This document shows, one piece after another, positions 28,934-61,439 of a DNA stretch of 64,000 bases. The DNA is from an uncultured Phycisphaerales bacterium. GTDB taxonomy: Bacteria > Planctomycetota > Phycisphaerae > Phycisphaerales > UBA1924. Where the stretch lies: contig CALMPG010000202.1 in the NCBI GenBank assembly GCA_937871915.1, forward strand, positions 1 to 64,000, written 5' to 3'. The notes under the pieces were generated by a model. That model had not been told where the DNA came from, ran no database searches, and saw only the letters and a list, made by a program, of their open reading frames with translations. Made by a program: the position numbers and the translations under genes. Each line of letters begins with the position of its first letter. Position 1 is the stretch's first letter.

Positions 28934-30288
28934 TGTGCAAATACTCCGTACCGCGCTCTCGGGGCGTTAACCGCATGCACCTCGAAGAACTCCAACCTTC
29001 CGGTTAGCAGGTTGAGAGCGCCGCGCGAGCGCGGCGATCCCTCGCGGGGACCGGGGGCCGGCCGGGCGAAGATGAATGGGACGGCTGTCATCGCTGATCC
29101 AGTATACAAGGAAGGATGCCCAGCACACCCATCCACCGCATGTTCAGGGTTCTGGCCGGGTCGAGCAGGGATGACCTCCGCCGCCAGGTCCAGTTCCTCA
29201 AGGCCGAGAACGAGGTCCTCCGCGCCAGGATCAAGGGGCCGATCCGGGTCACCCCGGCGGAGCGCGCCCGCCTGGTCCGGCTGGGAAAAGCGCTGGGGAA
29301 TGCCGTCCGGTCGCTGGTCACCATCGTCAGGCCCGAGACCTTCTTGAAATGGGTGCGGGAGGCGAAGAAGCGACGGCCGAAGCGAAAACGGTCCGCGAAG
29401 AAGAAGCCGGGGCGGCCGCGCACGCCCGGTGACATTCGGAAGATCGTGCTGCGGATCGCCAGGGAGACCGGCTTCGGCTACACGCGCATCCTCGGCGAGC
29501 TCAAGAAGCTGGGGATCGGCGGCGTCTCGCGGTCCACGGTCGTCAACATCCTCAAGGAGAACGGGCTGCCGACCGGTCCTGAGCGTGGCGAGCGGACCTG
29601 GGACGAGTTCCTCAAGGCCCACGCGAAGACGCTCTGGGCCTGCGACTTCCTCACGATGCGTGTGCTGACGGCCAGGGGGATGAAGTACGCCTTCGCGCTG
29701 GTCTTCGTGCATCCCAGGACGCGAAGGGCGCATGTGTCGCTCAGCACCACTAACCCCGATGCGAACTGGTTCACCCAAGTCGTGCAACGGTTCGTCGCGT
29801 CGGTTCCGAGGGAGATGGCCAAGCCCGGGCTCCTGCTCCGTGACCGCGACGACAAGTTCCGGGTCGGAGAAGACGCCTTCGCCAGGGTACTTGCCAACGT
29901 CGGAATTGAGACCATGCAACTGCCGCACCGGTCGCCCAACCTGAACGCCTACGTCGAGCGGCTCATCCAGAGCATCGAGGTCGAGTGCCTTAACCACTTC
30001 ATCGTGCTCGGGACCCGGCACCTGGACCACCTGCTGTCGGAGTACATCGACTATCACAACCGAGAGCGGCCGCACTCGTCCTTGGAGTTCGCCGCGCCGA
30101 TGGGGCGGAAGCCGCCCGTCCGCGCCGGGCCGGTCGAGCCCCGCGAGATTCGCTGCAAACAGCGGCTCGGCGGCGTCATCAAGCACTACTACCGGAAGGC
30201 CGCGTGACACGGTTTACCCTTCGAAATCCCGGCCGGAACGCACATGGAATACTTGTACAGGACGGTGCACGGACGGAATATTTGTACA
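28934..30288 (+). mobile_element. Insertion sequence with DDE integrase-core transposase
   Basis: A single transposase gene (29116-30207) is bracketed by an imperfect inverted repeat. The left end TGTGCAAATACTCCGTAC starts at 28934 and the right end, read inwards from 30288, is TGTACAAATATTCCGTCC (15 of 18 match). A second right-hand copy (TGTACAAGTATTCC, inwards from 30258) lies 30 bp inside and could be a subterminal transposase site. Ends starting with TGT suit IS481/IS3-like elements. No target duplication was found, so the exact borders are uncertain. Confidence 0.6.
29116..30207 (+). CDS. IS481/IS3-like transposase (integrase core)
   Basis: 363 residues in one frame. The N-terminal part has a leucine-zipper-like helix (LRRQVQFLKAENEVLRARI) and a basic region KKRRPKRKRSAKKKPGRPR. 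An HTH stretch (GFGYTRILGELKKLGIGGVSRSTV) leads into the rve/RNase-H core with DDE residues at D177 (WACDFLT), D245 (LRDRDDKF) and E281 (NAYVERLIQSIE). It ends with the family motif YHNRERPHSSL. It catalyses cut-and-join transposition of the surrounding IS. The gene appears intact. Confidence 0.9.
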   Translation: MPSTPIHRMFRVLAGSSRDDLRRQVQFLKAENEVLRARIKGPIRVTPAERARLVRLGKALGNAVRSLVTIVRPETFLKWVREAKKRRPKRKRSAKKKPGRPRTPGDIRKIVLRIARETGFGYTRILGELKKLGIGGVSRSTVVNILKENGLPTGPERGERTWDEFLKAHAKTLWACDFLTMRVLTARGMKYAFALVFVHPRTRRAHVSLSTTNPDANWFTQVVQRFVASVPREMAKPGLLLRDRDDKFRVGEDAFARVLANVGIETMQLPHRSPNLNAYVERLIQSIEVECLNHFIVLGTRHLDHLLSEYIDYHNRERPHSSLEFAAPMGRKPPVRAGPVEPREIRCKQRLGGVIKHYYRKAA

Positions 30289-31026: not shown

Positions 31027-34000
31027 CTACTGCCCAATCACGGGGATCGTACCGTTACACGCCTTGGCTTCGGTCAGATTTGCCGGGGCACACTTATTCC
31101 AAGCAGCAAGGCGATCGGCTCTGCTAACACCTTTGCAGCCGATGGTGTCCCCGTTATCGAGATACCAGTTGCGAAGTGCCTCTACGCATTCGGCCCATGA
31201 CTTTCCTTTGCGCCAAGGATTATTTGGATCACAACACGAGGCACGCGTCGTCGCTCTTGCCTCTGTGCACATTTCGTGTTTGCAGTATGGCTCTTGATTT
31301 CCGGGATCGAAAAGAGTGCATTTGTCGTCATTCTTGCAGTCGTCGGCTGCATGAATGATTTCATGCGCCAAAGAACCGCATCCTGAGCCGTCGTATCGAA
31401 CGGTGTTTTCGTTGCAAGTAAAACTATTCCTGTCAGTGCAAACGATCTTCAATGCGCCTCGCGAGCTCGATGCGCAGTCGGTGTAGTATCGCTCAAGCGC
31501 GGCTTTGACGAGTGAATTATCCTTGCAATCAGAGAGCGGATTAGATTTGCATGATTTGTCAATTACTGGATCTGGCGCTCGATGTGGCGGTTGCGTCGGA
31601 CTCGTCGGTTGACTTGCGCAGCCGCTGCCAAACAAAATGCACCCCGCCGCAATGCAGCCGATAATGATAAATATGATCGTACCACTCGGGTCTGTGTACA
31701 CAATCGGGTTGCTTCCAAGATTGAGATACAGGTTCAATCCGTCCGCGTAACCCAGCGAATCCCGCTGCAACCACACCGCCAGCAGCGGTGAGTACACGCG
31801 GTTGCGGCAGTTATAGAGACCGATGTCGGTCTCAAACGCCAGTCCTTGATGCGCGACCGTCCAATCGTATGCGGAGGCCGAGATGACGGTCCACGATGGG
31901 CTGAGGACGACGCGGTTGCCGTAGGGGTCGAACTGATAGCGTTCGAGCATGTTTCCGCTAGAATCGCAGATCGCCGTGCAGTTGAAGTTGGCGTCCTGCA
32001 TGGCGTAGATGCGCTTCCATGTGGAGTCGAATCGCCAGAGCAGTTCGTCCACGTATCGCACGCCCCAGGCGTAAGACTCCACGGTCGCCCCGCCGACAGC
32101 TTCGTCCAGCACCTGCCACTGGTCACTGAAGTAGAAGTCGCGGGTCTCGGTGAGAGTTCCACCCGTGTACGACTTCTTCACGACCCGCCGCCGCAGTCCG
32201 TCGTAGGCGTACTCGGTGACGAAGCTGGAGCCATCCTTGACGGCAACCAGCCGGTTCCATGCGTCGTAGATGCCGGTAAGGTTCGCGGTGAGGGCGCTCG
32301 GTTTCACGAACGCTTCCATGTTTCCCGCAGAGTCGTACTTGGGCGTCGCCCACACCGGCAACCCCACGGTGCCGGTCCCGATCGACGTGATCTCGTTGAC
32401 CGTGCTGGCGGTACGGGTCTGGTCAAGAACCGCTGTCCCGGAAGTATCCTCGACGAACTCACTCCAGTTCCCCACCGGGTCGAGCTTCCAATCCTGCTCC
32501 TTCACGGGCGTGCCCGGAATCACATGGCTGCCGTTGAGCGTCCCGCGCTTCATCTGCGTGAGGCGGTTCAGATTATCAACGGTGTACTGCTCATCGAACC
32601 CGGTCGTGGCGACCATGTTCTGCTTCCACAGCCGGTTCGAGTTTCGGTCGTAGCCGTACTCATAGCGATCAAAATCCGCCGGAGTTCCCCCATAAAACTT
32701 CCAGCGCTGGTCGATCACCCGGCCGAAGAGGTCGAGGCCATCGAACGTGCCGCTGGTCCCGCCCCACAGGTCGAGCATCACCTGCGGCTCGGCGAAGTCC
32801 AACCGCACGGCGCTCGCCGCGCCGATGTAGGTGTACTCGGCGGTGACGCCGGAGGTGTTGGTGTCGAAGACCGACTCGACGCGTGAGAGGCGGTCGTTGA
32901 TCCCACCCGTCGCGCCGTAGTCGTACCCGGTCGAGGCGTCGCCGACGACTTTGGTGCGGCGGACGTAGTTCGACGTCGATGTTCCGGCGTACGTGTACAG
33001 CACCGCGGGCGTGCTCCCGCTCACCGCGCCCGAGTGGCTCTGCGCATCCTTCGTGAGCAGGCCGTAGTCGTTATATTCGAGCCCGACCTGGTTGACCGGC
33101 GTGCCGGTGCCGGAGGTGTTGCTAAAGCTCGTGACCGTCTCCAGCATCCCGCGGACCTCGTACGCGCGGTCGATGCGGAGCACCGCCGCGTCCACGCCCG
33201 AGCCGGTGGTCGTCACCGTGTCGCTGACCAGCCGCCCGAGCTTGTCGTAGCCGAGCGTGTGGACGGTGCCCCGGCTGTCGGTCGTCGTCTTCTGCTGGCC
33301 CTGGCGGTTGTAGGTGAAGGCGAGCTGGTCCGAGCCGCTGACGGATCCCGGATAGTCGATCGTGGCGAGCAGCGAGTTGCTGGCGAGGTCCGACGCCGGA
33401 GACGTGGACGGGCTCACGCCGTAGGTATACGTCGTCGTCTGGTCGCCGGTGGTCGAGTTCACCGCGACCTGCGTGGCGATCTGGCTGTCGAGCGTGTAGG
33501 TGAAGTTCGTCGTGCGGTTGAGCTTGCTTGTGCCGAAATCGTCGATCCGGCTCGTCACCCGCCCGGCGGCGTCGAAGACGGTCTTGGCCACGATCGCCTT
33601 GGGATCGGTGATTTGGTAGGCGCGGCCCGCGTCGTCGTAGTCCGTGCTGGTCACCAGGATCGTGTCGGATCGGGCCGGGGGCGTGCCCGGGCGGGTGAAG
33701 CTCGCGATGGAGCCGTAGTTCGCCGAAGCGACGGCGCGGCCGATGCCGTCGAACCACGAGGCCGCGTAGGAGATCCGACCCTTGGGCTGCGTCCCGGCGG
33801 TGAGGGCCCCGGCGCTGCCGGTGCCGGAGTCCGGGGAATCGTTGAGCCGCTGGGCGCTGGCCGTGCTGATGACGCTCCCGGCGTCGTCCTGGGTGAACTC
33901 CGTCTGCTCGACCACGATGTCGCCGCTGACGGTGCCCGCTTCGCTGTAACTGGGCGAACCGGTGTAGTAGCTGCGATACGTCGCGGTCATCCAGCCCACC

Positions 34001-37000
34001 GCGTTGTAGGCGGTCTTCGTGGCGACCAGTCCGTCCCCCGCGCCGATCTGCTTCATCACACGGCCGACCGGGTCGTACCAGGTGCTCGTTGTGAGCGGGT
34101 TGCCGACCGTGCCGGTGGAGGGATCGACCGCGTAGGTGATCTGCTGATACGCCCGACCGAGGCTGTCGTAGGCGGCGGTGCTGCGTCCGATCAGGTTCCC
34201 GCCCGAGCTCGTGTCCTTGCGGTCGGTCTGGATTATGCGGTCGAGGTTGTCATAGGTCAAGACCTGGTAGACGTCGACCTCGCCGTCCATCGTGATGCGG
34301 CGGTTGCGGAAGTCGTACGTGTACGACGTGACGCGTGTATCGGAGGCGGCCGCGTACTGCGTGACCTGGGTCAGATTCCCATCGCCTCCGGCCGCGCCAC
34401 CGTCGTACTGGTTGGCGGTCACGATGACCATGTTGTTGGGCGCGCCGCTGCCGGCAGGATTGGAGTCCGTCGCGCCCGTGTCGTTCGTGCCGATCCAGAC
34501 TTCCTTCACCCGCTGCGGGGCCGTCCACACCGTCCGCGTGATCGTGCCGACCGGCGACACGACGCGGTTGCGACGTTCGAGCGCGTCATACCCATAGTCC
34601 GTCTGCGCGTAGTTCGTCCCGCTCGTGCCCGTCCCCGACGACGGGATCAGGAAGTATGAGCGCGTCGAGAGCAGCCGCCCCAGGTCGCTGTACTGCGAGC
34701 TGGACCACGACTTCCAGTCGGTCTGGGCGAACGTGTCCGACGGCGAGAGCGCCCCGCTCCCGCTGGTTCGCTTCGAGGTGATCTGGTCGATGACCCGGCC
34801 ATCCTTGTCCAGGCGGCTGATGGTGACCGGATCAACGAGCGTGTACGTGTAGCTCGGGCTGGTGCCGGTCGCGTAGCCCCGGCCGGACCAGTTCTGGTTG
34901 AGGTCCCATGTACCACTGCCCGGATTGACCGACCGAAGATAGACGAACCAGGACGCGGTGCGGACGACGGTGTCGGAACCGCCGATGACCGCGTGGTGCG
35001 ACGGGCCAAGGGACTGCGTCGGACGGCCCTCGTCGTCGTAGGTGGTGTCGGTGGTGACGTTGATGCCAGGGCCCGAGCCGCTGACCTGGTAGTTCAAGAC
35101 CGATTGCGTGGCGACCTGGAGCACCGGATCGTAGCTGTACTGGTTAACCGTCCCGGCCTGGTCGGTCGTCTCGATCAAGTTCCCGTTGGCGTCGAAGGTC
35201 TCGGAGTAGGTCGTCGCGGAGTTGGAGCCGTTCTGCGCCGTCGTCACGACGGGGAACGTCGTGGTCCGCGTGGCAATCAGGTTCGTACTGGCATGGAACG
35301 TGTAGGCGTAGGACGTCGTGTACTTGACCGCCGTGGTGGCGGCGTCGGGGTACACGCTCACCTGCGAGGGGAGGTAGACCGTGTTGCCGTCGCTGTCCGT
35401 GTTCGATGTGTAGACGTACTCGCGGAGGCGGATGTCCGAGCCGCCGGTGCCCTGGCGGACGTTCCGGTACTGCACGTAGCCCTGAGCCGCCCCGCTCCCG
35501 GTCGTCGTGTAGTAATCGGTGGTGCGCAGCAGGCCCGACGATGCGTTCAGGTACGTCGGGCTCCCGCCGTAGTTCACGAGGTCGGCGTACGCCTCGTCGT
35601 ACCCGCTGATCGCCGACGACTCGGCCTCGAGGACGACCTGGAAGTCGCTGTTGTACCGCCAGAACTTGTACCACTGGTCCGTCCCGTTCGAGTCGGTGTA
35701 GACGTGGAGGATCGGCGTGCCGCGGTAGGTGGAGTAGACCGTCAGCGTCGCGGCGTTCGGCAGCGTCTGAACCGTCTTGCACTTCCAGTTGTTCTCCCCG
35801 TCGGAGAACCCCGAGGTGCTGTACGCGAAGGTGTCCTGCGTCGTTCCGCCGCCCGGGCAGCTCACGCACACCGCCGCGACCTCTTTGGTCACCATCCGGC
35901 TGCTCGGGTCGTACTCGAAGTAATGGTCGGCATAGTCCTCGAGCGTGGCGTCGCTGTCGGTGTCGAAGTCCACGCCGTCGTTGAACGCGCGGCGGTACCC
36001 CTCGGGTCCGATCTGGATCTTGAGCCCGTGGACGAAGCCGGTGCCGCCGGCGGTATCGACATAATAACGGTAATAGCTGACCGCGATGTCTTCCCAGGAG
36101 GACGTGCCGCTTTCGTACTGCTGCTCGGTGGCGGTCTTGAGGTCGTTGAGGTTGCCGTTGCTGTCGCTGCCGTCGTGGTAGGTGTAGGTGAACTGCTTGA
36201 TGTTCACCCAGGAGCCGCCGGAGCCGGTCTTGCGCCGGTACGTAACGGAGGAGAGTTTCCCGGCGCTCACTCCGGACGTGTAGTAGGCGTAGACGAGCGA
36301 GCCGTAGTACGAGGTCGCGCCGACGGTCATCACCGATTGCAGTTCGGCGATCTCCGCCCCGCTGAGGCTGACGATGGTGGTATCCACGCCAGCGGTGTCG
36401 GTTTGGCTCACGAACTGACCAGGCCGGTTCAGGGCCGTGAAGTCGTTGAAGATCGTGGTGACCGTGGACCCACCGCGTCCCCCGCCCCCCCCAATGGTCC
36501 GCACAAAGGTGAAGATCTTCTTCGCCACATTGTGCACCAGCGTGAGGTTGATCGACCCGTCGCGCTGGGCGTACGTGCCGCCACCGGCGTCATCGAACCA
36601 GATGGGGTAGTTGGGGTCGAACACAACCGCGACCGACGTGCCGCTGGCCACGACATAGGGCATCTGCGCGATGAACCAGTTCCAGCCGTTCGGCCCGTCG
36701 TAGTCGGTCGAAGTCCTGTTGTTGTAGCTGCGGGTGTGCGTCAGCCGCGTGTAGGGCGTGACGATGTCGGCGAACGACAGCACGACCGCCCCGTTCCAGT
36801 ACCGCACCGGGCTGGCCGACGACATGACCGGGCCCGAGCCACATCCCCCCGCCCCACCGCCTGAACATCCGCCGGCGCTCGAAGCCATCGCGCCGGCAGC
36901 CGAACCGGCGGAAACCACAGCGTTGCGGTTTTCCAGGGGGCCACAGCCGTCGTCACAGTTGACCCAGCACCACACCGGCGGCCCATCATCGGGGACCGGG

Positions 37001-37035
37001 TTCAGAACGGAGCCGGAAGAACTGGAGCTCGGCAT
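31027..37035 (-). CDS. RHS-repeat protein with HExxH metallopeptidase-like C-terminal tip
   Basis: 2,002 residues from the ATG at 37035, chosen for AGGAGA eight bases upstream. A Ser/Gly/Cys-rich head lacks a Sec signal peptide. From about 100 to 1,780 there are many YD/RHS repeats (for example YDSLGRAYQQITY, YDPVGRVMKQIG-like, YDGLRRRVVKKS), ending in the conserved core DPYGNRV ... GLYNCRNRVYSPLLAVWLQRD and DPSGT, where RHS tips are cut or exchanged. The last 216 residues (31027-31677) are Cys-rich, start with a hydrophobic segment and contain AHEIIHAADD (HExxH). Their DNA is lower in GC than the core. RHS proteins encapsulate and deliver toxins; zinc peptidase tips are one known class. A lower-GC gene follows as candidate immunity. 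Confidence 0.88.
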   Translation of the reverse strand: MPSSSSSGSVLNPVPDDGPPVWCWVNCDDGCGPLENRNAVVSAGSAAGAMASSAGGCSGGGAGGCGSGPVMSSASPVRYWNGAVVLSFADIVTPYTRLTHTRSYNNRTSTDYDGPNGWNWFIAQMPYVVASGTSVAVVFDPNYPIWFDDAGGGTYAQRDGSINLTLVHNVAKKIFTFVRTIGGGGGRGGSTVTTIFNDFTALNRPGQFVSQTDTAGVDTTIVSLSGAEIAELQSVMTVGATSYYGSLVYAYYTSGVSAGKLSSVTYRRKTGSGGSWVNIKQFTYTYHDGSDSNGNLNDLKTATEQQYESGTSSWEDIAVSYYRYYVDTAGGTGFVHGLKIQIGPEGYRRAFNDGVDFDTDSDATLEDYADHYFEYDPSSRMVTKEVAAVCVSCPGGGTTQDTFAYSTSGFSDGENNWKCKTVQTLPNAATLTVYSTYRGTPILHVYTDSNGTDQWYKFWRYNSDFQVVLEAESSAISGYDEAYADLVNYGGSPTYLNASSGLLRTTDYYTTTGSGAAQGYVQYRNVRQGTGGSDIRLREYVYTSNTDSDGNTVYLPSQVSVYPDAATTAVKYTTSYAYTFHASTNLIATRTTTFPVVTTAQNGSNSATTYSETFDANGNLIETTDQAGTVNQYSYDPVLQVATQSVLNYQVSGSGPGINVTTDTTYDDEGRPTQSLGPSHHAVIGGSDTVVRTASWFVYLRSVNPGSGTWDLNQNWSGRGYATGTSPSYTYTLVDPVTISRLDKDGRVIDQITSKRTSGSGALSPSDTFAQTDWKSWSSSQYSDLGRLLSTRSYFLIPSSGTGTSGTNYAQTDYGYDALERRNRVVSPVGTITRTVWTAPQRVKEVWIGTNDTGATDSNPAGSGAPNNMVIVTANQYDGGAAGGDGNLTQVTQYAAASDTRVTSYTYDFRNRRITMDGEVDVYQVLTYDNLDRIIQTDRKDTSSGGNLIGRSTAAYDSLGRAYQQITYAVDPSTGTVGNPLTTSTWYDPVGRVMKQIGAGDGLVATKTAYNAVGWMTATYRSYYTGSPSYSEAGTVSGDIVVEQTEFTQDDAGSVISTASAQRLNDSPDSGTGSAGALTAGTQPKGRISYAASWFDGIGRAVASANYGSIASFTRPGTPPARSDTILVTSTDYDDAGRAYQITDPKAIVAKTVFDAAGRVTSRIDDFGTSKLNRTTNFTYTLDSQIATQVAVNSTTGDQTTTYTYGVSPSTSPASDLASNSLLATIDYPGSVSGSDQLAFTYNRQGQQKTTTDSRGTVHTLGYDKLGRLVSDTVTTTGSGVDAAVLRIDRAYEVRGMLETVTSFSNTSGTGTPVNQVGLEYNDYGLLTKDAQSHSGAVSGSTPAVLYTYAGTSTSNYVRRTKVVGDASTGYDYGATGGINDRLSRVESVFDTNTSGVTAEYTYIGAASAVRLDFAEPQVMLDLWGGTSGTFDGLDLFGRVIDQRWKFYGGTPADFDRYEYGYDRNSNRLWKQNMVATTGFDEQYTVDNLNRLTQMKRGTLNGSHVIPGTPVKEQDWKLDPVGNWSEFVEDTSGTAVLDQTRTASTVNEITSIGTGTVGLPVWATPKYDSAGNMEAFVKPSALTANLTGIYDAWNRLVAVKDGSSFVTEYAYDGLRRRVVKKSYTGGTLTETRDFYFSDQWQVLDEAVGGATVESYAWGVRYVDELLWRFDSTWKRIYAMQDANFNCTAICDSSGNMLERYQFDPYGNRVVLSPSWTVISASAYDWTVAHQGLAFETDIGLYNCRNRVYSPLLAVWLQRDSLGYADGLNLYLNLGSNPIVYTDPSGTIIFIIIGCIAAGCILFGSGCASQPTSPTQPPHRAPDPVIDKSCKSNPLSDCKDNSLVKAALERYYTDCASSSRGALKIVCTDRNSFTCNENTVRYDGSGCGSLAHEIIHAADDCKNDDKCTLFDPGNQEPYCKHEMCTEARATTRASCCDPNNPWRKGKSWAECVEALRNWYLDNGDTIGCKGVSRADRLAAWNKCAPANLTEAKACNGTIPVIGQ

Positions 37036-37254
37036 CGTCGGCTCTCCTTGTCGTCGGTAGACGCCAGCGCGGCACACGCTGGAACAAAGAGCAACGGCCC
37101 GGCCCGGAAGAATCGACGAAGAGACTGGCCTTGGGGCTCCGTAGCGGATGGAGAGCCGGGGAGTTCTGTCAGCGTACGGGCTCGGCATGGGCCGGTCAAG
37201 CCGCCATCGAATATGGTTTTGGGGAGATTCCGATCAGGCTTTCGGGAGCGAATC

Positions 37255-38208
37255 TTGGATCGCCGCGCCCTCATCCTCAAGTGCACGCTCTCGCCCGGCG
37301 ACTTATGTACGCTCACGGCCGCCATCGAATCACTGCACGCGCAGTACCCGGGGCGGTTCCTCACGGATGTAGGCACGACCTGCGATGAGCTGTTTTTGCA
37401 TAACCCCTGGATCACGCCGCTGCCAAGCGGCGAGCACGTGCCCATGCACTACGGCGACATCCAGCGGAGCAACGACCAGCCGCGCACGTTCATCAGCGCG
37501 TACACGCGTCATCTCGAAAAGTACCTCGGGATGCCACTGCCGGCGCTGACGAACCGGCCGCACCTCTATCTGTCGGATGATGAGAAGCGCTTGCCGGCCC
37601 GTCTTCGTGAGAACGGAGTTGAAACAGGCCGGTATTGGGTCGTCTGCGCCGGGATCAAGAGCGACTTCACGCTCAAGCAGTGGCCGCTGGAGCACTACCA
37701 GGAGGTGGTGGACCACTTCCGCGGCCGTGTCGCGTTCGTCCAGGTCGGGAGCGGTGACGACGAACACCCCGCCCTGGAGGGCGTCATCGACCTTGTCGGC
37801 CGGACGGGCCACCGCGACCTCATGCGCGTGTGCTTTCACGCCGCGGGCGGGCTCGGCCCCATCACCTACCTCCAGCACCTGTGCGCCGCCTTCGAGAAAC
37901 CCTACGTCGCCCTGCTCGGCGGGCGCGAGCCGGTGATGTGGACGCAGTATCCGCTCCAGCGGACGCTGCACACGATGGGGATGCTCTCGTGCTGCCGGAC
38001 CAAGGCCTGCTGGAAGAGCCGCGTCGTCGCCCGCGGCGACGGCGAAGCCCACGATCGGAGCCTGTGCGAGCTTCCCGTGCTCGATTTCTCGATACCGGTG
38101 GGGCGATGCATGGCGTTGATCCGGCCGGTTGAGGTCATCGCGGCGATCGAGACCTGCCTTGACGGGCAAGTTCGCACGCAGGGTGTACCGGGCGGAGCGA
38201 TCTCATGA
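37255..38208 (+). CDS. Glycosyltransferase family 9-like (heptosyltransferase-like)
   Basis: 317 residues from a TTG at 37255, preferred because GGGAG lies just upstream and the recognisable fold begins here (DRRALILKCTLSPGDLCTL). ATG 37213 and an earlier ATG at 37048 are alternatives. Two Rossmann-like halves are seen: the acceptor half (ALILKCTLSPGDL, IESLHAQYPGRF) and the donor half ending GGLGPITYLQHLCAAFEKPYVALLGGRE, which is the sugar-nucleotide-binding block of GT9 enzymes. It probably transfers a sugar to a phage or surface component. Its stop overlaps the next glycosyltransferase start (ATGA). Confidence 0.78.
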   Translation: MDRRALILKCTLSPGDLCTLTAAIESLHAQYPGRFLTDVGTTCDELFLHNPWITPLPSGEHVPMHYGDIQRSNDQPRTFISAYTRHLEKYLGMPLPALTNRPHLYLSDDEKRLPARLRENGVETGRYWVVCAGIKSDFTLKQWPLEHYQEVVDHFRGRVAFVQVGSGDDEHPALEGVIDLVGRTGHRDLMRVCFHAAGGLGPITYLQHLCAAFEKPYVALLGGREPVMWTQYPLQRTLHTMGMLSCCRTKACWKSRVVARGDGEAHDRSLCELPVLDFSIPVGRCMALIRPVEVIAAIETCLDGQVRTQGVPGGAIS

Positions 38209-39611
38209 TGGCCGGCGAGAGAGCAAGCGTGATGGGGGGAGTCGGGTCTCTAGATGAGTTCCTGCGTGTGTTCATTGGCGACCATCAGTTCCGCGTCGTG
38301 CTCGATCTTCCCTGCGGCGACTGGCGCGCGGTGCCGAGGCTCGACTGGAACGAGGTGCAGTACATCGGCCTGGACGGCGATCCGGCGATCGTCGAAGCCA
38401 ACCGCCGGAGACGCGACACGCCGGCCAACTGCTTCTTCCATCACATGGATGTCGCGGCGAGCCAACTCCCGCCCGCGGACGCCGTGCTCATCCGTGGCCG
38501 AGTCGAGGCATGTTCGCTCCCCGCGATGACGACAATCCTGGAAGGGGCCGGGCGTTCGGCGCACGTTCTGGTGATCGGCGGACCCTGCGGCTTGGACGCG
38601 TTGCCGGCGCTGACATCGAGGCACAGAGCAACCTTCGACGTGGCAGGCGTCCGAGTCTCGCATTGGTCGCCGCCGGCGGCGCCGACATCCGCGCGACCGA
38701 TCGACTGGAGCCGCGTGCAACTCACCGAAGCGAACGCGGCGGGCTACATGGATCTTGCGGCGGCGTTGTGCCCGGACGAACCAACCCAAGCGTTCGAGGG
38801 CCGGGGAGTCGTCATCCCGGCGGGCGGCCCCATATACCTTCCGTGCGCGTGGGTGTGCGTCCGGATGCTCCGGCATGTGGGGTGCACGCTGCCGGTCGAG
38901 ATGTGGCACTTGGGTCCAGAGGAGATGCCCGAGCAGGTGCGGCGGCTCCTTGAGTCGCTGGGAGTGCGCACGGTGGATGCTCTGGACGTCCTTCGGGATT
39001 ATCCGGTCCGCCGACTCGACGGATGGTCCCTAAAACCCTACGCGATCATGCACAGCCGGTTCCGCGAGGTGCTGATGCTGGACGCCGACAACGTCCCCAT
39101 CGTCGATCCGACCTTCCTCTTCGACACGCCGGAGTTCCGCAAGCGGGAAGCGATCTTCTGGCCCGACTACCAACGGCTGGCCCCGCACCGGTCGATCTGG
39201 CGGGTGACGGGCGTCCCGTACCGCGACGAGCCTGAGTTCGAGAGCGGGGAGATCGTCGTGGACAAGGTTCGGTGCTGGAAGCCGCTCGCCGTGACGATGT
39301 GGATGAACGAGTTCGGCGAGTTCTTCTACCGGCACATGCACGGCGACAAGGAGACGTTCCACATGGCCTGGCGCAAGCTCCGCCGCCCCTACGCCATGAC
39401 CCGGCACCCGCTCGTCTCGCTCAGCAAGGTCATGTGCCAGCACGATTTCGACGGCCGCCGCGTCTTCCAGCACCGCAACTTCGCCAAGTTCTCCCTCGCC
39501 GCGCCCAACCGCCGCATCGGCGGCTTCCTCCACGAGGAGCGGTGCTTCGGGTACCTGCGGGAGCTGGCGGAGCTCGACGGCGTGCCGTGGCGGACCGCCG
39601 CTTCCTCTTGA
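38205..39611 (+). CDS. SAM-methyltransferase-like domain fused to GT71/mannosyltransferase-like glycosyltransferase
   Basis: 468 residues. Residues about 28-70 (VVLDLPCGDWRAVPRLDW, YIGLDGDPAIVEANRRR) are a class I SAM-binding fold with DLPCGDW as motif I. The C-terminal part (about 205-468) looks like alpha-mannosyltransferases of the MNN1/GT71 type: DxD as D293-A-D295 in FREVLMLDADNVPIVDPTFLF, then FWPDYQRLAPHRSIW. The methyltransferase half is short and may be a remnant. It is coupled to the GT9-like gene by ATGA and convergent with the Ser/Gly-rich Hint protein gene. Substrates are unknown. Confidence 0.75.
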   Translation: MMAGERASVMGGVGSLDEFLRVFIGDHQFRVVLDLPCGDWRAVPRLDWNEVQYIGLDGDPAIVEANRRRRDTPANCFFHHMDVAASQLPPADAVLIRGRVEACSLPAMTTILEGAGRSAHVLVIGGPCGLDALPALTSRHRATFDVAGVRVSHWSPPAAPTSARPIDWSRVQLTEANAAGYMDLAAALCPDEPTQAFEGRGVVIPAGGPIYLPCAWVCVRMLRHVGCTLPVEMWHLGPEEMPEQVRRLLESLGVRTVDALDVLRDYPVRRLDGWSLKPYAIMHSRFREVLMLDADNVPIVDPTFLFDTPEFRKREAIFWPDYQRLAPHRSIWRVTGVPYRDEPEFESGEIVVDKVRCWKPLAVTMWMNEFGEFFYRHMHGDKETFHMAWRKLRRPYAMTRHPLVSLSKVMCQHDFDGRRVFQHRNFAKFSLAAPNRRIGGFLHEERCFGYLRELAELDGVPWRTAASS

Positions 39612-39758
39612 TGGCGAGTCGCAGCGTGATGAGGTCGTGAGACGGGTCGATGCCCCGCAGCAGCGAAGGTCATCGTACTTTTCGCGTCAAGTCTCATTGT
39701 CGCACCAACCGTGATCTCGCCCTTGATCCCGGGCCGTGGGAGGGCGAATCGCTGTTAG

Positions 39759-41156
39759 TTAGATCGAGAAGGTACCGGTCCCGCCGCCGGAACTCGACGT
39801 GCTCCCGCTTCCCGGCGTGCTCCCGGACAAGGAAGATGAGCCGGACATCGGCCCAGAGGTCGAGAACGACGACGACCCGCTGGACTTGCTGCCTGACGAT
39901 CCGCTGCTAGATGTGCCGCTAGTCGATCCAGACATCGATCCGCTCCCTGACTGGGACTCCGGAGCCGAACCGCTTCCCGAGCCGGAAGCGCTGGTAGCAG
40001 CAGAACTGCTATTTGCCGTCTGATTCGGCATGTCGTTGTGGACCCACACGCCTTCGGCGAGGAGCGTGTTCGTGCCAGGGATGTGGATGGCGACGGTGCG
40101 GGTTGGCGCGTCGATGCGGATGACCGACTCGACCTCCTCTTCGTTCATCTGCTCGTCGATCAGGAAGTCGCCGGGCTGGATGAACTCGGCGGATGCAAAG
40201 CCCCACTCGTCGCCGCGGCGGATCATGAATGGGTGCTCGGGCGTCGCCTTCAGGCGACGGTTGATCACCATGAAGCCGTGGTGCTCGCCGAGGCGGATGC
40301 TGGCCACGCGCGCCGCGATGGGCGTCGCGCCGTGAAGGCCGTGGTGCGAGAGCCAGTTGTACTGAGCACGGTAGGGAACATCGACCTCAAGGCCGGGCAC
40401 CTGGATGGATGCCACGCGGTCGCCGGGCTTGAGGTTCTCGATAGGCGTCAGGCGGCCGTCCTCGAGCCGCACGAGGGTGCCGAAGAGGAGGCAGTTGCTG
40501 CCCGGACCCGATCCGCCAGGGCCAGAACCACCGGGACCGGAGCCCCCCCCGCTCGATCCGCCGCCGCCAGAGGACCCGCCTCCGCTAGAGCCGCCTGACC
40601 CGCCAGACGATGCGCCGGAGCTCATACCGCTGCTAGCTCCGGACGATGCGCCGCTGGACATCCCGCTGCTCATGCCGCTGCTGCCCGACCCGGACGACCC
40701 CGAGCCGCTCGAAGAGCCAGATCCCGACCCGCTCGACGACGATCCGGACGACGATGAACCCGACGAGGACGAACCACTGGACGACATCGACCCCGAAGAC
40801 GAGCTGCCCGACGATGATGTCGGTGTGCCGCTGCTAGAGCCCGACGAGCCTGAAGACATGGAATCGCTCGAGCCGCTGCTCGACGGCGTGTGCGTCGTGC
40901 CCGACGTGTTGCTCGTGAAGGCGCCGGTGGTGTAGAACGTGAGCGTGGGCGTTCCGCCGGGACCGGTCGTGTAGATGACATCGCCGGTGGTCGAGTAGCT
41001 CGGCGGCATGCTCGGCGTGCTCGACGGCGTCGAGTAGGTGCTTTCGGGCGTTGAGCCCGACGGCGTGGAGTAGTTGCTCGACCCGCCACCCGTGGGCGGA
41101 CGGCCCGTCGCCCACACGGGGATGTATAAGTAGTAGCGGGTGGGGCCGTCGCTCAT
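39759..41156 (-). CDS. Ser/Gly-rich protein with an embedded Hint (BIL/intein-like) domain
   Basis: 465 residues from the ATG at 41156 (overlapping the upstream stop). A short head (MSDGPTRYYLYIPVWATG) leads to low-complexity Ser/Thr/Pro then Ser/Gly repeats at about 25-221. A Hint domain spans C222-N374 (nt 40035-40493): NCLLFGTLVRLEDGRL with LKPGDRV (block A), KATPEHPF (block B), and a C-terminal TLLAEGVWVHN followed by Asp375. The residues after it are again Ser/Gly-rich. The +1 Asp rather than Cys/Ser/Thr means protein splicing is unlikely; N-terminal cleavage or cyclic ester chemistry, as in bacterial intein-like (BIL) domains, is more likely. It lies among sugar-transfer genes at the distal tail end of the phage cluster. 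Confidence 0.85.
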   Translation of the reverse strand: MSDGPTRYYLYIPVWATGRPPTGGGSSNYSTPSGSTPESTYSTPSSTPSMPPSYSTTGDVIYTTGPGGTPTLTFYTTGAFTSNTSGTTHTPSSSGSSDSMSSGSSGSSSGTPTSSSGSSSSGSMSSSGSSSSGSSSSGSSSSGSGSGSSSGSGSSGSGSSGMSSGMSSGASSGASSGMSSGASSGGSGGSSGGGSSGGGGSSGGGSGPGGSGPGGSGPGSNCLLFGTLVRLEDGRLTPIENLKPGDRVASIQVPGLEVDVPYRAQYNWLSHHGLHGATPIAARVASIRLGEHHGFMVINRRLKATPEHPFMIRRGDEWGFASAEFIQPGDFLIDEQMNEEEVESVIRIDAPTRTVAIHIPGTNTLLAEGVWVHNDMPNQTANSSSAATSASGSGSGSAPESQSGSGSMSGSTSGTSSSGSSGSKSSGSSSFSTSGPMSGSSSLSGSTPGSGSTSSSGGGTGTFSI

Positions 41157-42055
41157 CGGGCGGCCTCCTGGGGGGTCGGCTTCGGATTGGGTTCGTACCA
41201 GCCCGCCGTGCTCACCGGCTTGCCGCACTCGGCGGACGCGGCCTTCACCGCCGCATCGAAGTCCATGCGGTCGAATGCCTGGAGCTCGCTGCCCGGCGAG
41301 CAGTTGTTCACGCGGAATCGGTGCTTGTCAAAGTGCGGTCGCAGGGCCTCGAAGCGGCGGGCCAGCGAGTCGTACAGGACGTTATTGTGGCGGATGGCGT
41401 TGGGTGCCCGGTGCTCATCGAAGGCGTACCTGCGGTCGGCCGCCATCTTGAAGTCACACCCAAGCAGGTACACCGTACCGAACCCGAGGTGATGCAGCAG
41501 GCGCAGGGCGACGAGCATGACGCTCCGTTTGCCGGTGATCCCGAGCGAGTCCGCGTGCTTGGCGTCGTTGCCCCACGGGACCGAGTCGCCCGTCAGGAAC
41601 CTCTCATGGTCGAAGTGGTCGGCGCGGCGGAAGAACAGGACGCTCGGCATCTGCCGCACGCGGAACGCGCTGTTGCGCATGGTGCCGTCGGGGTTCTGGA
41701 TGCGGAGCCGCTTGTCCACGCAGCACGTCGGCACGAACTTCAGGATGCCCGGGTCCTTCCAGCCGGTATCGATGAAGCGACCCGGATCGTCCACGCAGGT
41801 CCAGAGCGTCGGGCGATGCACGGACCAGGAGTTGTTCACCCCCATCGTGACGATGCCGCGCTTGTTGAGCTGTGTCAGGTCCACCTGCGTGAGCGACGGC
41901 CCCGACAGGATCAGGAACGCCGAGCGACCCCGGTAGAAGCCCGCCAGCGAAACCGAATCGAAATCGGCGGTGTAGAGGCGCAGGCCGTCCCGCGCGGGCT
42001 TCCGCGCCTTGAGCCCCGCCTGGAGTGCCGCGATGTCCGACTGGTTCTCACGCAC
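41153..42055 (-). CDS. DUF115-like (6-hydroxymethylpterin pyrophosphokinase-fold) protein
   Basis: 300 residues. LAGFYRGRSAFLILSGPSLTQVDL is the Rossmann opening (GPSL loop) typical of DUF115, followed by VTMGVNNSWSVHRPTLWTCVDD and later VYLLGCDFKMAADRRYAFDE. The family includes MptE-like pyrophosphokinases and proteins linked to surface and flagellar glycosylation. It sits between a SAM methyltransferase gene (eight-base overlap) and the Ser/Gly-rich Hint protein gene (ATGA), so a role in modifying a tail or surface protein is likely. The exact reaction is unknown. Confidence 0.75.
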   Translation of the reverse strand: MRENQSDIAALQAGLKARKPARDGLRLYTADFDSVSLAGFYRGRSAFLILSGPSLTQVDLTQLNKRGIVTMGVNNSWSVHRPTLWTCVDDPGRFIDTGWKDPGILKFVPTCCVDKRLRIQNPDGTMRNSAFRVRQMPSVLFFRRADHFDHERFLTGDSVPWGNDAKHADSLGITGKRSVMLVALRLLHHLGFGTVYLLGCDFKMAADRRYAFDEHRAPNAIRHNNVLYDSLARRFEALRPHFDKHRFRVNNCSPGSELQAFDRMDFDAAVKAASAECGKPVSTAGWYEPNPKPTPQEAAR

Positions 42056-42647
42056 AGCCGCAGCCCTCCTTGGCAGCGAATCGACCGACGATGTACCGAC
42101 CCTCGGCCTTGGGTGCCGTTACCGTGCCGACCTGTCCGATGCGATCGAGCCACCACGCCAGCGGCCGCACCGTGGGATGCAGCCCTTCGCCGGCGACGGT
42201 CGTCCGGCTCGGACGCGTGCAGATCGAGAACACGAAGTGCGCCCGCGGGCGTGCCACCCGCCGCATTTCCGCGAGCACCGCATCCACGTCCTCGGGAAGC
42301 AGGTGTTCCAGGGCATCGAAGCTTGTCACCACGTCGGCCACGCCGTCGAGCAGTCCGGTATTGTGCATCGCCCGCGGGAGGTCCGCCTCGGGGAACGCGA
42401 AGTCGATACCGAGCCCGTCAATGCCGATCCGCCGCAACGCCCCGATGAAGTCGTTTCGCCCGCACCCGAAGTCCACCACGCAGCGGGGCTTCAGCCGCTG
42501 GACCAGCAGTAAAGCCGCTGCGCCGTGGTTGGTCGCGCCGTACCCAGTTCCCGGCGCGGCGGGCCGCGCGGCCAACGCGACGTACTTCTTCCGCTCGTGC
42601 TCGCGGCGGGCATCCAGTGTGGGCTTGGTCGGAGAGGTCATAGTCAT
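42048..42647 (-). CDS. Class I SAM-dependent methyltransferase
   Basis: 199 residues. Motif I CVVDFGCGRNDFIGAL (about 66-81), IDGLGIDFAFPEADLP, and motif IV region DVVTSFDALEHLLPEDVDAVLAEMRRVARP follow the Methyltransf_11 pattern. The short N-terminal tail is charged (DARREHERKKYVALAARP). The substrate is unknown; the neighbouring DUF115-like and glycosyltransferase genes suggest methylation of a sugar or glycoconjugate rather than DNA. The ATGA overlap with the upstream tail gene puts it in the late structural operon. Confidence 0.85.
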   Translation of the reverse strand: MTMTSPTKPTLDARREHERKKYVALAARPAAPGTGYGATNHGAAALLLVQRLKPRCVVDFGCGRNDFIGALRRIGIDGLGIDFAFPEADLPRAMHNTGLLDGVADVVTSFDALEHLLPEDVDAVLAEMRRVARPRAHFVFSICTRPSRTTVAGEGLHPTVRPLAWWLDRIGQVGTVTAPKAEGRYIVGRFAAKEGCGCA

Positions 42648-43672
42648 GCGCCTCCCTCGATGTAGATGTTGAACTTGCGGTCCTCATCGGCCGGGTCGGC
42701 GATCTCGATCAGGCTCATCGCCTCGAACACCCACACGGGCCTTCCCTTGCTATTGCGCTCGCACGTGAGCTGCACGCAAACCCCCTCGGGGATCGGCACG
42801 AGCTTGGGCTTGAGCGACCGCGCGGGCGGGCACCTCGGAAGCACGCCGGGCAACTCGCACACCGGCCCCAGGCCGAGCAACCCTCCAAAGCCGGAGCCCG
42901 GGTCGAAGTCGTTCATGTGATGCGCCTCGAAGCGGTTGATGGCCAGCCGCGTCGGGTCCTCACCGCCACCGGCCAGTTGCGACGACAGCCCCTCGGGCAC
43001 GGGGACATAGCGGAGGTAGGTGTCGCTGCCGGGATCGCCGTCGATCCGGGCCTCAACCCACGGGTAGCGCCAGCGGTTGTTTTCGGTGGGAATGGGCTGG
43101 GCCGCGCCGAGGATTGCCGTGACGCGGCCGGGCGAAGGCTGACCCATCTCGATCACGGCCCACTTCTCGCCGGTGCCTTCTTCCTTCCACAGGATCGGGA
43201 TGCCGCCCATGGGCGTGCTGGCCAGCATGGTCTCCTCGGGAGCCAGCTCGCAGGTCGTGTCCGTCTCGTTGGTGATGAAGACGCGCGCGGGCGTGACACC
43301 CGTGAGCACGCAGCGCCCGAGGTCGCCCGGCTTGATCGGCTGGAGCGCCAGCACGAACGAGAGCGACGGGGATTCCTCGGTGGCGATCTCGCCCGTCAGG
43401 GGCGTGCGGCTGTGGAACGTCCGCTCCTGGTCCTCGTTGTCGGGCTGCACGAGCACGCCGGTGATGGCCAGCGCGTGGTACGGCTCGATGTCATCGTCGG
43501 AGTCGTTGCGGACCAACACGATCCCGCGCTGCGCGGGCTCCACCGAAGGACCGGCGGTGGCGTTGCGCTCTCGCCGGCGCAGATCGACCGCCGCGTCGAC
43601 AAAGGCGTTGTACGCCGCCGCGGGGATGCGGAGCGGTTGGCCCGATCGGACTTTGCGGAACACGTCGCCCAT
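42644..43672 (-). CDS. Phage structural protein, probably distal tail/fibre associated
   Basis: 342 residues. The N-terminus MGDVFRKVRSGQPLRIPAAAYNAFVDAAVDLRRRERN is a helix seen at the start of many phage baseplate or fibre-proximal proteins in this kind of cluster. The remainder is beta-rich (VLVRNDSDDDIEPYHALAITGVLVQP, GEKWAVIEMGQPSPG, MSLIEIADPADEDRKFNIYIEGG) and resembles a capsid- or tail-decoration fold. No enzyme motif. It overlaps the methyltransferase start (ATGA) and lies three bases downstream of the next structural gene, in the order tape measure - tail protein - this protein. Confidence 0.68.
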   Translation of the reverse strand: MGDVFRKVRSGQPLRIPAAAYNAFVDAAVDLRRRERNATAGPSVEPAQRGIVLVRNDSDDDIEPYHALAITGVLVQPDNEDQERTFHSRTPLTGEIATEESPSLSFVLALQPIKPGDLGRCVLTGVTPARVFITNETDTTCELAPEETMLASTPMGGIPILWKEEGTGEKWAVIEMGQPSPGRVTAILGAAQPIPTENNRWRYPWVEARIDGDPGSDTYLRYVPVPEGLSSQLAGGGEDPTRLAINRFEAHHMNDFDPGSGFGGLLGLGPVCELPGVLPRCPPARSLKPKLVPIPEGVCVQLTCERNSKGRPVWVFEAMSLIEIADPADEDRKFNIYIEGGA

Positions 43673-43675
43673 CGC

Positions 43676-44485
43676 TTAGATTCCAAGACCTGCGAAGTTG
43701 CCCTCGTCGTACACTCGCTCGACATACGCCGCGACCGGGCGCTTCACGATCGCGTGCGATCCGGTGTCTTCCTGGTCGGCGTACCGCACCCACAGGTACT
43801 CCCACCCCTTCTTGCTGATGCCGCTGATGTCGCCGACCGAGATGCCGGTCGCGTTCGGGCTGGCCGCGAACCGGAAGGTGATCTCCCAGTCGTCGTCGGG
43901 GTCAGTGCCGCGCCTCGCGCCCGATGCGCCGAGGAACAGGACCTCGCCCGCCTGGAACCCCTTGAACGCCCCGGCGTTCACCTTGCCGGTGAGCGAGAAG
44001 AGCGTGCCCTTGTACGACGGCGTCACCTGGTCGTTGGTGAAGTAGTGCGTCTCGGAGAACTGGAACACCGGCACGGTGATGTCCACGCCCTCGACGCCGT
44101 CGGCGGTGACTCCGACCGCGCCGCCGAAGTCCGGGGGCGACGAGCCCGAGGGCGCATGCGAGGAAACCGTCTCCTTGCTCTGGGTGATGTGCTGTGTGCC
44201 GCCGCCGGTGTCGAAGGAGAAGATGCTCTCGCCGGGCTCGGGGAGCGAGCCGCCCTGGGCCTTCCCGTAGCGGACCACGGCTTCCCACAGCTCATCGCCG
44301 ACGGGCTCGACCGAGGTGGATTGCCGGGGCTGGCCGTCATAGGTCGCGGGGCTGGTGGTCTCGGCGGCGTTGCGGGCCGCGAGGTCGTCGTTGGTCCCGC
44401 GCACGGTGTAGACCAGTTCCGCCGAGGGGTTGTCGCCCTTGGTGGACTTGCGGCTCTCGAACTTCTCCGTCACCGTGATCGCCAC
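43676..44485 (-). CDS. Phage tail protein, distal tail-type, function unknown
   Basis: 269 residues, beta-rich throughout: AELVYTVRGTNDDLAARNAAE, VDITVPVFQFSETHYFTNDQV, FKGFQAGEVLFLGASGARRG, WEITFRFAASPNATGISVG and GWEYLWVRYADQED. The position directly after the tape-measure gene suits a distal tail or hub component, and the FKGF..GEVLFLGA and DDWEITF.FAASPN pattern looks like a conserved viral domain. It lies twelve bases after the tape measure and three before the next tail gene. No enzymatic motif is seen. Confidence 0.7.
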   Translation of the reverse strand: MAITVTEKFESRKSTKGDNPSAELVYTVRGTNDDLAARNAAETTSPATYDGQPRQSTSVEPVGDELWEAVVRYGKAQGGSLPEPGESIFSFDTGGGTQHITQSKETVSSHAPSGSSPPDFGGAVGVTADGVEGVDITVPVFQFSETHYFTNDQVTPSYKGTLFSLTGKVNAGAFKGFQAGEVLFLGASGARRGTDPDDDWEITFRFAASPNATGISVGDISGISKKGWEYLWVRYADQEDTGSHAIVKRPVAAYVERVYDEGNFAGLGI

Positions 44486-44497
44486 GAACGTCCCTCC

Positions 44498-46492
44498 TTA
44501 CGCGAACGTCAACCCGCCGGTCTGCGCGGCGTCGGCCAGACGCTTGGTGTGCTTGGCGGTCTGCTCTGTGGCTCGGGCGGTGCGCTCGGCGACACCGCCG
44601 TCGGACTCCAGCCCCTGCGCAGCGCGGGCGTTGAACGTGCCCCGCACGCTGATCCCCTTGCCGATGACCTCCCCGAGCCCGGCGAGCCGGTCCTCGAACT
44701 CGGCCATGAGATCGCGCGGCGTCCGGCCGGGGCCGCGTTCGGCATCCGCCGCTTCTCGTTTCAGGCGGGCCTGCTCGATGGCATCGGCGAGCTTCTGCTT
44801 CGCCGCATCCAGCGCCGCTTGCGACTCCGCGAGCCCCGCCTCCGTGTTCGCCTTGAGCGCGGCCTGGGCCTCCTCAAAGTCGCGGCCAATCCCGGCGAGC
44901 GTTGCCTCGTGCAGGGCGGCGGCCTGCTCGCGCTCAGCGGAGCGATGCCCCTCGCGCTGGGCCACCTGCCGCTGGGCCGTGCTCTCCAGTTCTGCCAGGC
45001 GGGATTCGAGTTGGTCATCGACAGCCCTCTTCGCGGCGTCTACGTCGAGCCCGGAGTCGAACAACCCCTGGATCTCGAGCATCCGCTTGGCCACCCACGA
45101 CGTTGCCGACTCCCAGACCTGCTGGAAGCCGGTGGTGAAGTTGGTCCAGGTCTTGGACAGGAACGACGTGGTCTCGATCCACGCGACTTCGAGGGCGTGG
45201 AAGACGATCTCCGCGGCGGCCAGCGCCCCGTACCACATGCCGTAGGCGGTAGAGACGAAGAACTCCTTGGCCTCCAGCCAGACCTTGTTCAGCGCGGCGA
45301 CGCCCTGCTGCCAAACCACCTTGAGCGACAGCCACAGGATCTCGGCCGCCAGCGCGAGGTCGCCCGCCGCGAGGGCGTCGGAGATGCCGCCAACGACCCT
45401 GGTGACCCACTCGCGCAGACGCGTGAACTGCTCGCCGAGCCATGCGAGCGCTTCGCCACCGACTCCGGTGGTGACGAGAAGCACGCCGCCGAGTGCCACG
45501 ACTGCGGCGATCGCCAGCCCGACCGGTGACAGGATCGCAGTGATGGCCGCACCGATCATGCCGAAAGCGGCCCCGATGCCACCGATCACACCCGCGACGA
45601 TGCCGAGCGTCGCGCCAATGCCCGAGACGATGTACCCCAGCGCGACGATAGCGACCCCCGCCACGGCGACGGCCGCTGCAATCTTGAGCGCCCACACGAC
45701 CATGTCCCGGTTCGCCTTGATCCAGGTGGTGACGCTCACGACGATGCGGGTGATCCGCTCCGCGAGGTCCTTGAGCGTCGGCGCGAGCGCGCCCCCGATG
45801 GTGAACACACCCTGCTTGAGTACCTTCCAGAGGGTGCCGAGGGCATCGTTCAGGGCGGCGGCGTCGCGAGCAGTCTCGGTGCTGACGGTCAGGCCGAGGC
45901 GCCGAGCCTCCTCCTGCATCGCCTCGATGCCCGCCGCACCGTCGGCCATAAGCGGTAGAAGCTTCGTTCCGGCCTTGCCGAAGACCTCCATCGCGAGTGC
46001 AGCGCGGAGGGCGGGGTCGCGCACCTGCGAGATGCGCTCCGCGAGGACCTTGAACTGTTCGTCCGGGGAGAGGCTCGTCAGTTCGGCGGCACTGAGCCCG
46101 AGCCGGCCGAGCGCGTCGCCCGCGGATGCCGACCCCTGCGCTGCGCCCGCAAGCGTTCGCTGCATGTTGCGGAGCCCGGACTCGAGCGTCTCCAAGTCCG
46201 TGCCGGAGAGGTCGGCCGCGAATCCCAACTCAGAGAGCGCCTCCACGCTCACGCCTGTCCGCTGGCTCATCTTGTCCAGCATGTCGCCTGTGTCAGAGAA
46301 GGCCTTCGCCGTGCCGAGCAGCGCCGTGACCGCCGCCGCGCCGATCCCGGCGAGCCGCGTGCCCACCGACCTGAGGCCAGCCCCGAAGGCTTCGAGCTGC
46401 TTCTGGGCGCGGCGAAGCCCGGCCGTGAGCTTGTCGCTCACGCCGAGTTCGACGAACGCACGCCCAGCCCGGATGCCTCGGGTGTCAGCCAT
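44498..46492 (-). CDS. Phage tail tape measure protein
   Basis: 664 residues. The N-terminal region is typical of tape measures (LRRAQKQLEAFGAGLRSVGTRLAGIGAA, GDMLDKMSQRTGVSVEALSELGFA, then LTSLSPDEQFKVLAERISQVRD). A hydrophobic membrane-associated stretch covers about 265-350 (AAAVAVAGVAIVALGYIVSGI, VALGGVLLVTTGVGGEALAWL). The C-terminal part is a long coiled coil (about 490-640). The protein sets tail length and helps DNA entry; by the usual scale of about 0.15 nm per residue it suits a tail of roughly 100 nm. It is followed by distal tail genes. An opposite-strand GIY-YIG gene sits directly upstream of its start. Confidence 0.9.
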   Translation of the reverse strand: MADTRGIRAGRAFVELGVSDKLTAGLRRAQKQLEAFGAGLRSVGTRLAGIGAAAVTALLGTAKAFSDTGDMLDKMSQRTGVSVEALSELGFAADLSGTDLETLESGLRNMQRTLAGAAQGSASAGDALGRLGLSAAELTSLSPDEQFKVLAERISQVRDPALRAALAMEVFGKAGTKLLPLMADGAAGIEAMQEEARRLGLTVSTETARDAAALNDALGTLWKVLKQGVFTIGGALAPTLKDLAERITRIVVSVTTWIKANRDMVVWALKIAAAVAVAGVAIVALGYIVSGIGATLGIVAGVIGGIGAAFGMIGAAITAILSPVGLAIAAVVALGGVLLVTTGVGGEALAWLGEQFTRLREWVTRVVGGISDALAAGDLALAAEILWLSLKVVWQQGVAALNKVWLEAKEFFVSTAYGMWYGALAAAEIVFHALEVAWIETTSFLSKTWTNFTTGFQQVWESATSWVAKRMLEIQGLFDSGLDVDAAKRAVDDQLESRLAELESTAQRQVAQREGHRSAEREQAAALHEATLAGIGRDFEEAQAALKANTEAGLAESQAALDAAKQKLADAIEQARLKREAADAERGPGRTPRDLMAEFEDRLAGLGEVIGKGISVRGTFNARAAQGLESDGGVAERTARATEQTAKHTKRLADAAQTGGLTFA

Positions 46493-61261: not shown

Positions 61262-61439
61262 AGCGATCTCCGTCGTGGGCACCGGCGAGGGCGCGGCGCA
61301 TGGGCGTCGTGGTGGCCCGCCGCGCACGCGGCAGGTCATGGATCGCTGGTTGGCTGGTTCGCTGAATCGCTCGGGCGTCAGGCCCGTCCGGGGGCGGCAC
61401 ACCGCCCCGATTCCCGCCTACTACGGGCCGCGCCCGTTC

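Follow-up and report, generated by a model that had tools for sequence, protein, structure and literature searches.

The last genes of a phage tail operon in the window, the whole stretch of 64,000 nucleotides that was analysed, probably serve to make an appendage protein that trims itself and is decorated with sugar, in a family of phages infecting Phycisphaerales. The operon closes with genes for a methyltransferase, for a protein with the fold of the flagellin glycosyltransferase Maf and for a Ser/Gly/Thr-rich protein whose Hint domain is intact, and the three are inherited together. Glycosylation of the Ser/Gly-rich protein, excision of the Hint domain and location at the tail end are predicted from genetic coupling, fold and catalytic residues. 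No description of the operon, of Maf in phage tails or of planctomycete intein-like phage tail proteins was found among the open-access papers that were searched.

The window carries the late region of a tailed phage, with terminase, portal, head protease, major tail protein and tape measure, and the tail cluster was backed by PHROGs profiles for each of these. The operon runs on the minus strand in the order tape measure, X269, Y342, methyltransferase, Maf/DUF115-like glycosyltransferase and, as the last gene, the Ser-rich Hint protein (Table 1). The Hint gene, originally called at 39759-41228 on the minus strand, almost certainly starts at ATG 41156 (MSDGPTRYYLYIPVWA), where the start overlaps the stop of the DUF115-like gene as ATGA and AGGAGG lies upstream. 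Given this start, all of the last four genes overlap, by 4 bp between Y342 and the methyltransferase, by 8 bp between the methyltransferase and the DUF115-like gene, and by the ATGA at the final junction. Most related loci also have the tape measure gene ahead of the module, on its upstream side, and the position of X269 between tape measure and Y342 was kept in 135 loci; X269 had no family match in Pfam or PHROGs. Since the structure model of Y342 was poor (pLDDT 58), gene order and gene fusions are the basis for the placement at the tail end.

Table 1. Features of the tail-end operon and of the neighbouring cargo genes (positions in the window)
Feature	Position	Strand	Evidence or remark
GT9 (heptosyltransferase-like), window-specific cargo	37255..38208	+	Pfam GT9 8.6e-7, 29 bits vs cut-off 22
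Fused methyltransferase-GT71, window-specific cargo	38205..39611	+	Mannosyl_trans3 4.9e-33, 115 bits vs cut-off 22; PHROG methyltransferase 1.1e-7
Ser/Gly/Thr-rich protein with internal Hint domain, 465 aa	39759..41156	-	Start refined from GTG 41228
C-flank (C-extein), Ser/Gly-rich, 91 aa	39762..40034	-	
Hint domain, A-type BIL-like	40035..40493	-	Cys1, TxEH, C-terminal His-Asn, then Asp
N-flank (N-extein), 221 aa	40494..41156	-	Conserved RYYLYIPVWA head and Ser/Gly/Thr-rich stretch
Maf/DUF115-like glycosyltransferase (predicted protein O-glycosyltransferase)	41153..42055	-	PHROG sialyltransferase 1.6e-10; AF2 model
Class I SAM methyltransferase, operonic	42048..42647	-	Pfam Methyltransf_23 1.9e-10
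Y342, conserved beta-rich tail-region protein	42644..43672	-	Overlaps the methyltransferase gene
X269, conserved tail-region protein, no assigned function	43676..44485	-	Between tape measure and Y342
Tail tape measure protein	44498..46492	-	PHROG tape measure 1.1e-51; opens the distal tail gene run

Several other genes were observed in the window. A large serine recombinase lies at 25980-27632, and an integrase-core (rve_3) transposase (29116-30207, plus strand) is close to the recombinase end of the prophage. A ParB-like nuclease fused to a DNA methyltransferase is encoded at 59897-61402 on the minus strand (PHROGs 2.8e-124 and 1.3e-49). Within the prophage there is also an RHS/YD-repeat protein of 2053 aa (31027-37188, minus strand), a candidate polymorphic-toxin tip whose C-terminal HExxH segment has a weak likeness to Peptidase M76 (0.0087, below the cut-off).

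An alignment search with the DUF115-like protein returned 80 viral contigs and 79 loci in genomes, the majority of these loci lying in MAGs of Phycisphaerales or other planctomycetes; a phage collection searched with the same protein gave no match. Among 150 close loci, 133 were informative, with 250 nt or more of sequence beyond the DUF115-like gene. A Ser-rich protein was encoded downstream of the Maf-like gene in all 133 (five of them after a small insertion), the RYYLYIPVWA-type head was present in 133/133, and the exact 4 bp overlap between the DUF115-like stop and the Ser-rich start was found in 118 of 130, all these counts including sequences of shared ancestry which are not independent events. 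Because the loci had been picked by the DUF115-like gene, the reverse test was run from the Hint side, and the DUF115-like gene was present in 43 of the 49 viral-contig Hint loci. The other six, without an intact DUF115-like gene, were four Y342-Hint fusions, one contig edge and one locus with the 3' end of a DUF115-like gene. Selection was purifying on both the Maf-like and the methyltransferase genes, and also on Hint domains of the same type, with dN/dS between them of about 0.05-0.35. Recurrence in 133/133 loci together with these dN/dS values is more than would be expected by chance.

Homologues were detected in 20 of the 61 genomes searched, the window's own genome counted, with about six in a single genome (G004). 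The window's own genome holds three further copies, making four Hint copies in all (contigs C18 and C95). Several related prophage tail clusters could occur in one genome; CP054186.1 has four DUF115-like loci.

The Ser-rich protein was also associated with other sugar-modifying enzymes. One clade carries a GT32-like gene that shares 4 bp with the Ser-Hint gene (32/32 loci) and generally has a second GT32 behind it, both matching PF04488 above the cut-off. GT32 was present in all 30 loci with a type-B Hint and in none of the 57 type-A loci with room to show it (counts that include kin). Across Hint types the DUF115-like protein remains about 80-89% identical to that of the window, while Hint identity is about 53%, so that the GT32 genes have apparently been swapped in one block with the C-terminal half. 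A Maf-less sub-lineage was also found (L244, L245, L269, L272 and L058), in which the Ser/Gly-Hint region is joined to the N-terminal part of Y342; the DUF115-like gene was not found in genome G008 of this sub-lineage, in a search run without a positive control. This fusion suggests that the two proteins belong to one structure. The gene that follows in L272, with a 4-bp overlap, codes for GT25 and sulfotransferase domains, both above the cut-off, and a protein of the same type is, by sequence, encoded nearby downstream in the other four loci. That sugar-modifying enzymes of unrelated kinds recur beside the Ser-rich protein is the chief reason to regard it as their probable substrate. L058 (minus strand, about 11.4-13.7 kb) has Y342 split in two genes, each with its own terminal Ser/Gly-Hint region.

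All the genes that an earlier note had named in this region (GT9, GT71, Ser/Gly Hint, DUF115-like and SAM methyltransferase) were present at the distal end of the PHROGs-confirmed tail cluster. The note had taken them as one set and proposed a glycosylated, self-processed appendage. The arrangement of methyltransferase, Maf-like gene and Ser-rich gene recurs in related loci, whereas GT9 and GT71 are specific to the window. These two genes lie outside the operon, on the opposite strand and beyond the Ser-Hint gene. They were absent from all 28 loci of a first panel, and a 159-locus panel had them in L144 alone, a viral contig whose sequence in this part is 100% identical to that of the window. 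GT9 and GT71 as general partners of the Ser-Hint protein were therefore ruled out; they are a separate glycosyltransferase pair, fused in G060, that came as hotspot cargo. On the genomic evidence, it is the Maf/DUF115-like protein and the methyltransferase of the operon that count. What stands of the proposal is a tail-end, Ser-rich and probably self-processed protein, coupled in more than 130 loci to several unrelated sets of enzymes of the protein-glycosylating type.

The Hint-distal side of the operon is a cargo hotspot, in which RND efflux pumps were found (ACR_tran, E below 1e-290; for example L054:10069-13683 and L010:10252-13833), as well as, by sequence, apparent P-type ATPases, type I restriction-modification systems, serine recombinases and RHS giants. 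In G060 (L274 and L278), which belongs to another family within the same taxonomic order, GT9 and GT71 domains are fused in one protein.

It is unlikely that the Maf-like enzyme, the methyltransferase and the accessory glycosyltransferases alter the host surface, for lysogenic conversion or superinfection exclusion, with the Ser/Gly protein a mere neighbour. Such a role would agree with the fact that surface glycans are also built by the GT9, GT71, GT32 and GT25 families, and with the hotspot cargo that adjoins the Hint gene (RND efflux and, by sequence, restriction-modification and RHS), but it does not fit genes that lie in a late tail operon, are strictly inherited with the Ser-rich gene and are coupled to it by 4 bp. 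Moreover, GT32 tracks a single type of C-terminal half in the Ser-rich protein, and the substrates of Maf enzymes are proteins. Decoration of the Ser-rich protein itself is thus preferred.

The composition of this protein is extreme. Ser and Thr make up 158 of the 312 residues outside the Hint domain, 109 in the N-flank, which has 2 Arg and zero Lys, and 49 in the C-flank, which has one Lys located in a recurrent KSSGSS motif. Gly-rich linkers precede Cys1, and a Ser/Gly tail closes the protein, which ends in ...GGGTGTFSI without an LPXTG wall anchor.

For the Hint domain, Pfam gave Hint_2 (0.0011) and PT-HINT (0.0014), both under the curated cut-offs, and the closest solved structure to the family profile was the bacterial intein-like (BIL) domain 2lwy (E 6.5e-7). 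Among 100 parsed homologues, Cys1, the T-x-E-H block and the penultimate His were each present in 100 and the Asn in 99. Residue +1 is Asp in the window and in 95/100 homologues, the exceptions being Thr (4) and Ser (1). The catalytic residues of A-type BIL domains are retained, and processing activity is predicted. One clade (L102, L183, L184, L188, L189 and L191) has no Hint, and a different short segment occupies its position; since the N- and C-terminal ends of the Ser-rich protein are unchanged in this clade, Hint would not be required in every version, as expected for a self-removing element.

Instead of simple excision, the Hint domain might pass the N-flank to another nucleophile in a Hedgehog-like manner, such as a glycan, a lipid or a Lys (for example that of KSSGSS). 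A-type BILs form a thioester without a +1 nucleophile (PMC4031507), and a conserved single Lys motif and a Gly-rich linker are found at the junction. This transfer is nevertheless improbable, since the C-terminal His-Asn, dispensable for Hedgehog-type transfer, is kept in 99-100% of the homologues, and the Hint-less clade manages without the domain. Excision of Hint is the reading retained below.

The AF2 model of the DUF115-like protein, built from 23 sequences, reached a pLDDT of 87.3. Foldseek by itself gave no E below 0.001 for this model, and VIA-align was used as a second comparison. Among solved structures, Maf, which O-glycosylates Ser/Thr of flagellin, matched best (5mu5; 200 residues at Z 14.1 and rmsd 3.7); the alignment pairs residues 29-278 of the 300-aa protein with the middle of Maf, which has 632 residues. 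Flagellar Maf has further domains on the N- and C-terminal sides of its central domain, and these are absent from the phage protein. PF01973 scored 15.2 bits for the window protein and 19.5 for that of L214, under the 34.6 required. A Pfam match to CST-I (GT42) also fell below the cut-off, and a profile search against solved structures gave weak matches to CstII-type sialyltransferases (E 0.004-0.009); the Maf central domain itself resembles CstII (PMC11339370). By the model, the DUF115-like protein has the Maf_flag10 fold, and sugar transfer to Ser/Thr is predicted. In L214 and L139 the methyltransferase and the Maf-like domain are within one reading frame, which links the two enzymes. Distant DUF115-like relatives adjoin other enzymes, for example GT25 in L222 and a methyltransferase-domain protein in L141, with L220 likewise among such loci.

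There is very little probability that the DUF115-like protein is an MptE-like pterin pyrophosphokinase rather than a glycosyltransferase: M. jannaschii HPPK (8sd5, Z 10.9) followed Maf among the structural matches and weak MptE-like Pfam matches were seen, but Maf scored clearly higher, sialyltransferases (about 10; CstII 10.3) dominate the remaining structural rows and the sequence profile, PHROGs assigned a sialyltransferase, and a relative adjoins a GT25 gene. Least probable of all, a polymorphic-toxin-like protein with a C-terminal effector released by Hint was rejected because, in spite of the weak PT-HINT match and of RHS proteins nearby in some loci, the C-flank is a short Ser/Gly-rich tail, similar across lineages, without any Pfam domain match or toxin domain.

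Under the preferred reading, the Maf-like enzyme would attach a sugar directly to Ser/Thr of both flanks in the cytoplasm, where Maf glycosylation takes place (PMC4065374). No sequon is known for Ser/Thr O-glycosylation by Maf enzymes, and the reported sites lie in low-complexity or hydrophobic surroundings (PMC11339370). The sugar would perhaps be a nonulosonic acid, as with Maf enzymes. A NeuB-family gene was found in the host genome, an observation that agrees with this but is unspecific, since the gene was also found in 36/37 relatives and 9/14 controls. The methyltransferase would then cap the sugar (or the protein). Hint would remove itself through Cys1 and Asn cyclisation, and the flanks would be cleaved and partly ligated, as in A-type BILs, to leave a mature flexible glycoprotein located at the tail end near Y342. 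The decoration may be supplemented or replaced by GT32 enzymes or the GT25-sulfotransferase in other lineages. The purpose would probably be protection or adsorption. The genomic arrangement suggests that these phages display the processed, sugar-decorated protein on their particles.

Parts of this system resemble known ones. In serine-rich repeat glycoproteins of Gram-positive bacteria, a long Ser-rich low-complexity acceptor is encoded with adjacent glycosyltransferases. This combination is shared here, whereas the phage protein is without the LPXTG anchor, the glycosyltransferases are of other families and the genes are in a phage operon. By model comparison, the phage enzyme is alike in fold to the central Maf_flag10/DUF115 domain (5mu5) of Maf flagellin O-glycosyltransferases, which need no sequon, and its gene likewise adjoins that of a Ser/Thr-rich presumptive acceptor (PMC11339370). 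The phage enzyme differs in being a single domain of about 300 aa, in its place in a phage tail operon with coupling or fusion to a methyltransferase, and in its likely acceptor, which is the Ser/Gly-rich protein instead of flagellin. With A-type BIL domains (2lwy; PMC4031507), the phage Hint has in common Cys1, the TxxH block, the C-terminal His-Asn, a mostly non-nucleophilic +1 residue and a variable protein around the domain; it differs in the conserved Asp at +1, the Gly-rich and Ser/Gly-rich low-complexity flanks, the phage operon and the sugar-modifying enzymes. For mycobacteriophages (Che8 and relatives, as cited in PMC11256854), phage-encoded glycosyltransferases have been linked to glycans of virion proteins, with the major capsid protein modified. 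The glycosyltransferases are phage-encoded in both cases, and the present system, known from its genes, has instead a Ser/Gly-rich tail-end protein with a predicted self-processing domain, and a Maf-fold enzyme.

In phages and prophages, a presumptive acceptor and its enzymes are brought together in one small operon that is repeated at more than 130 loci. To our knowledge, few natural roles have been described for BIL domains, and phage-borne glycosyltransferases have seldom been matched to their targets. With this pairing and with natural Hint-less, Maf-less and enzyme-swapped alleles, both the role of a BIL domain and phage protein O-glycosylation would be directly testable in a minimal system. 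It is possible, though still tentative, that the operon represents a new phage glycan-display system, in which a mucin-like, intein-processed tail-end protein would carry a decoration (methyl-capped, GT32-extended or sulfated) that is swapped as a cassette with part of its acceptor, giving the phages a variable sugar coat for adsorption or shielding.
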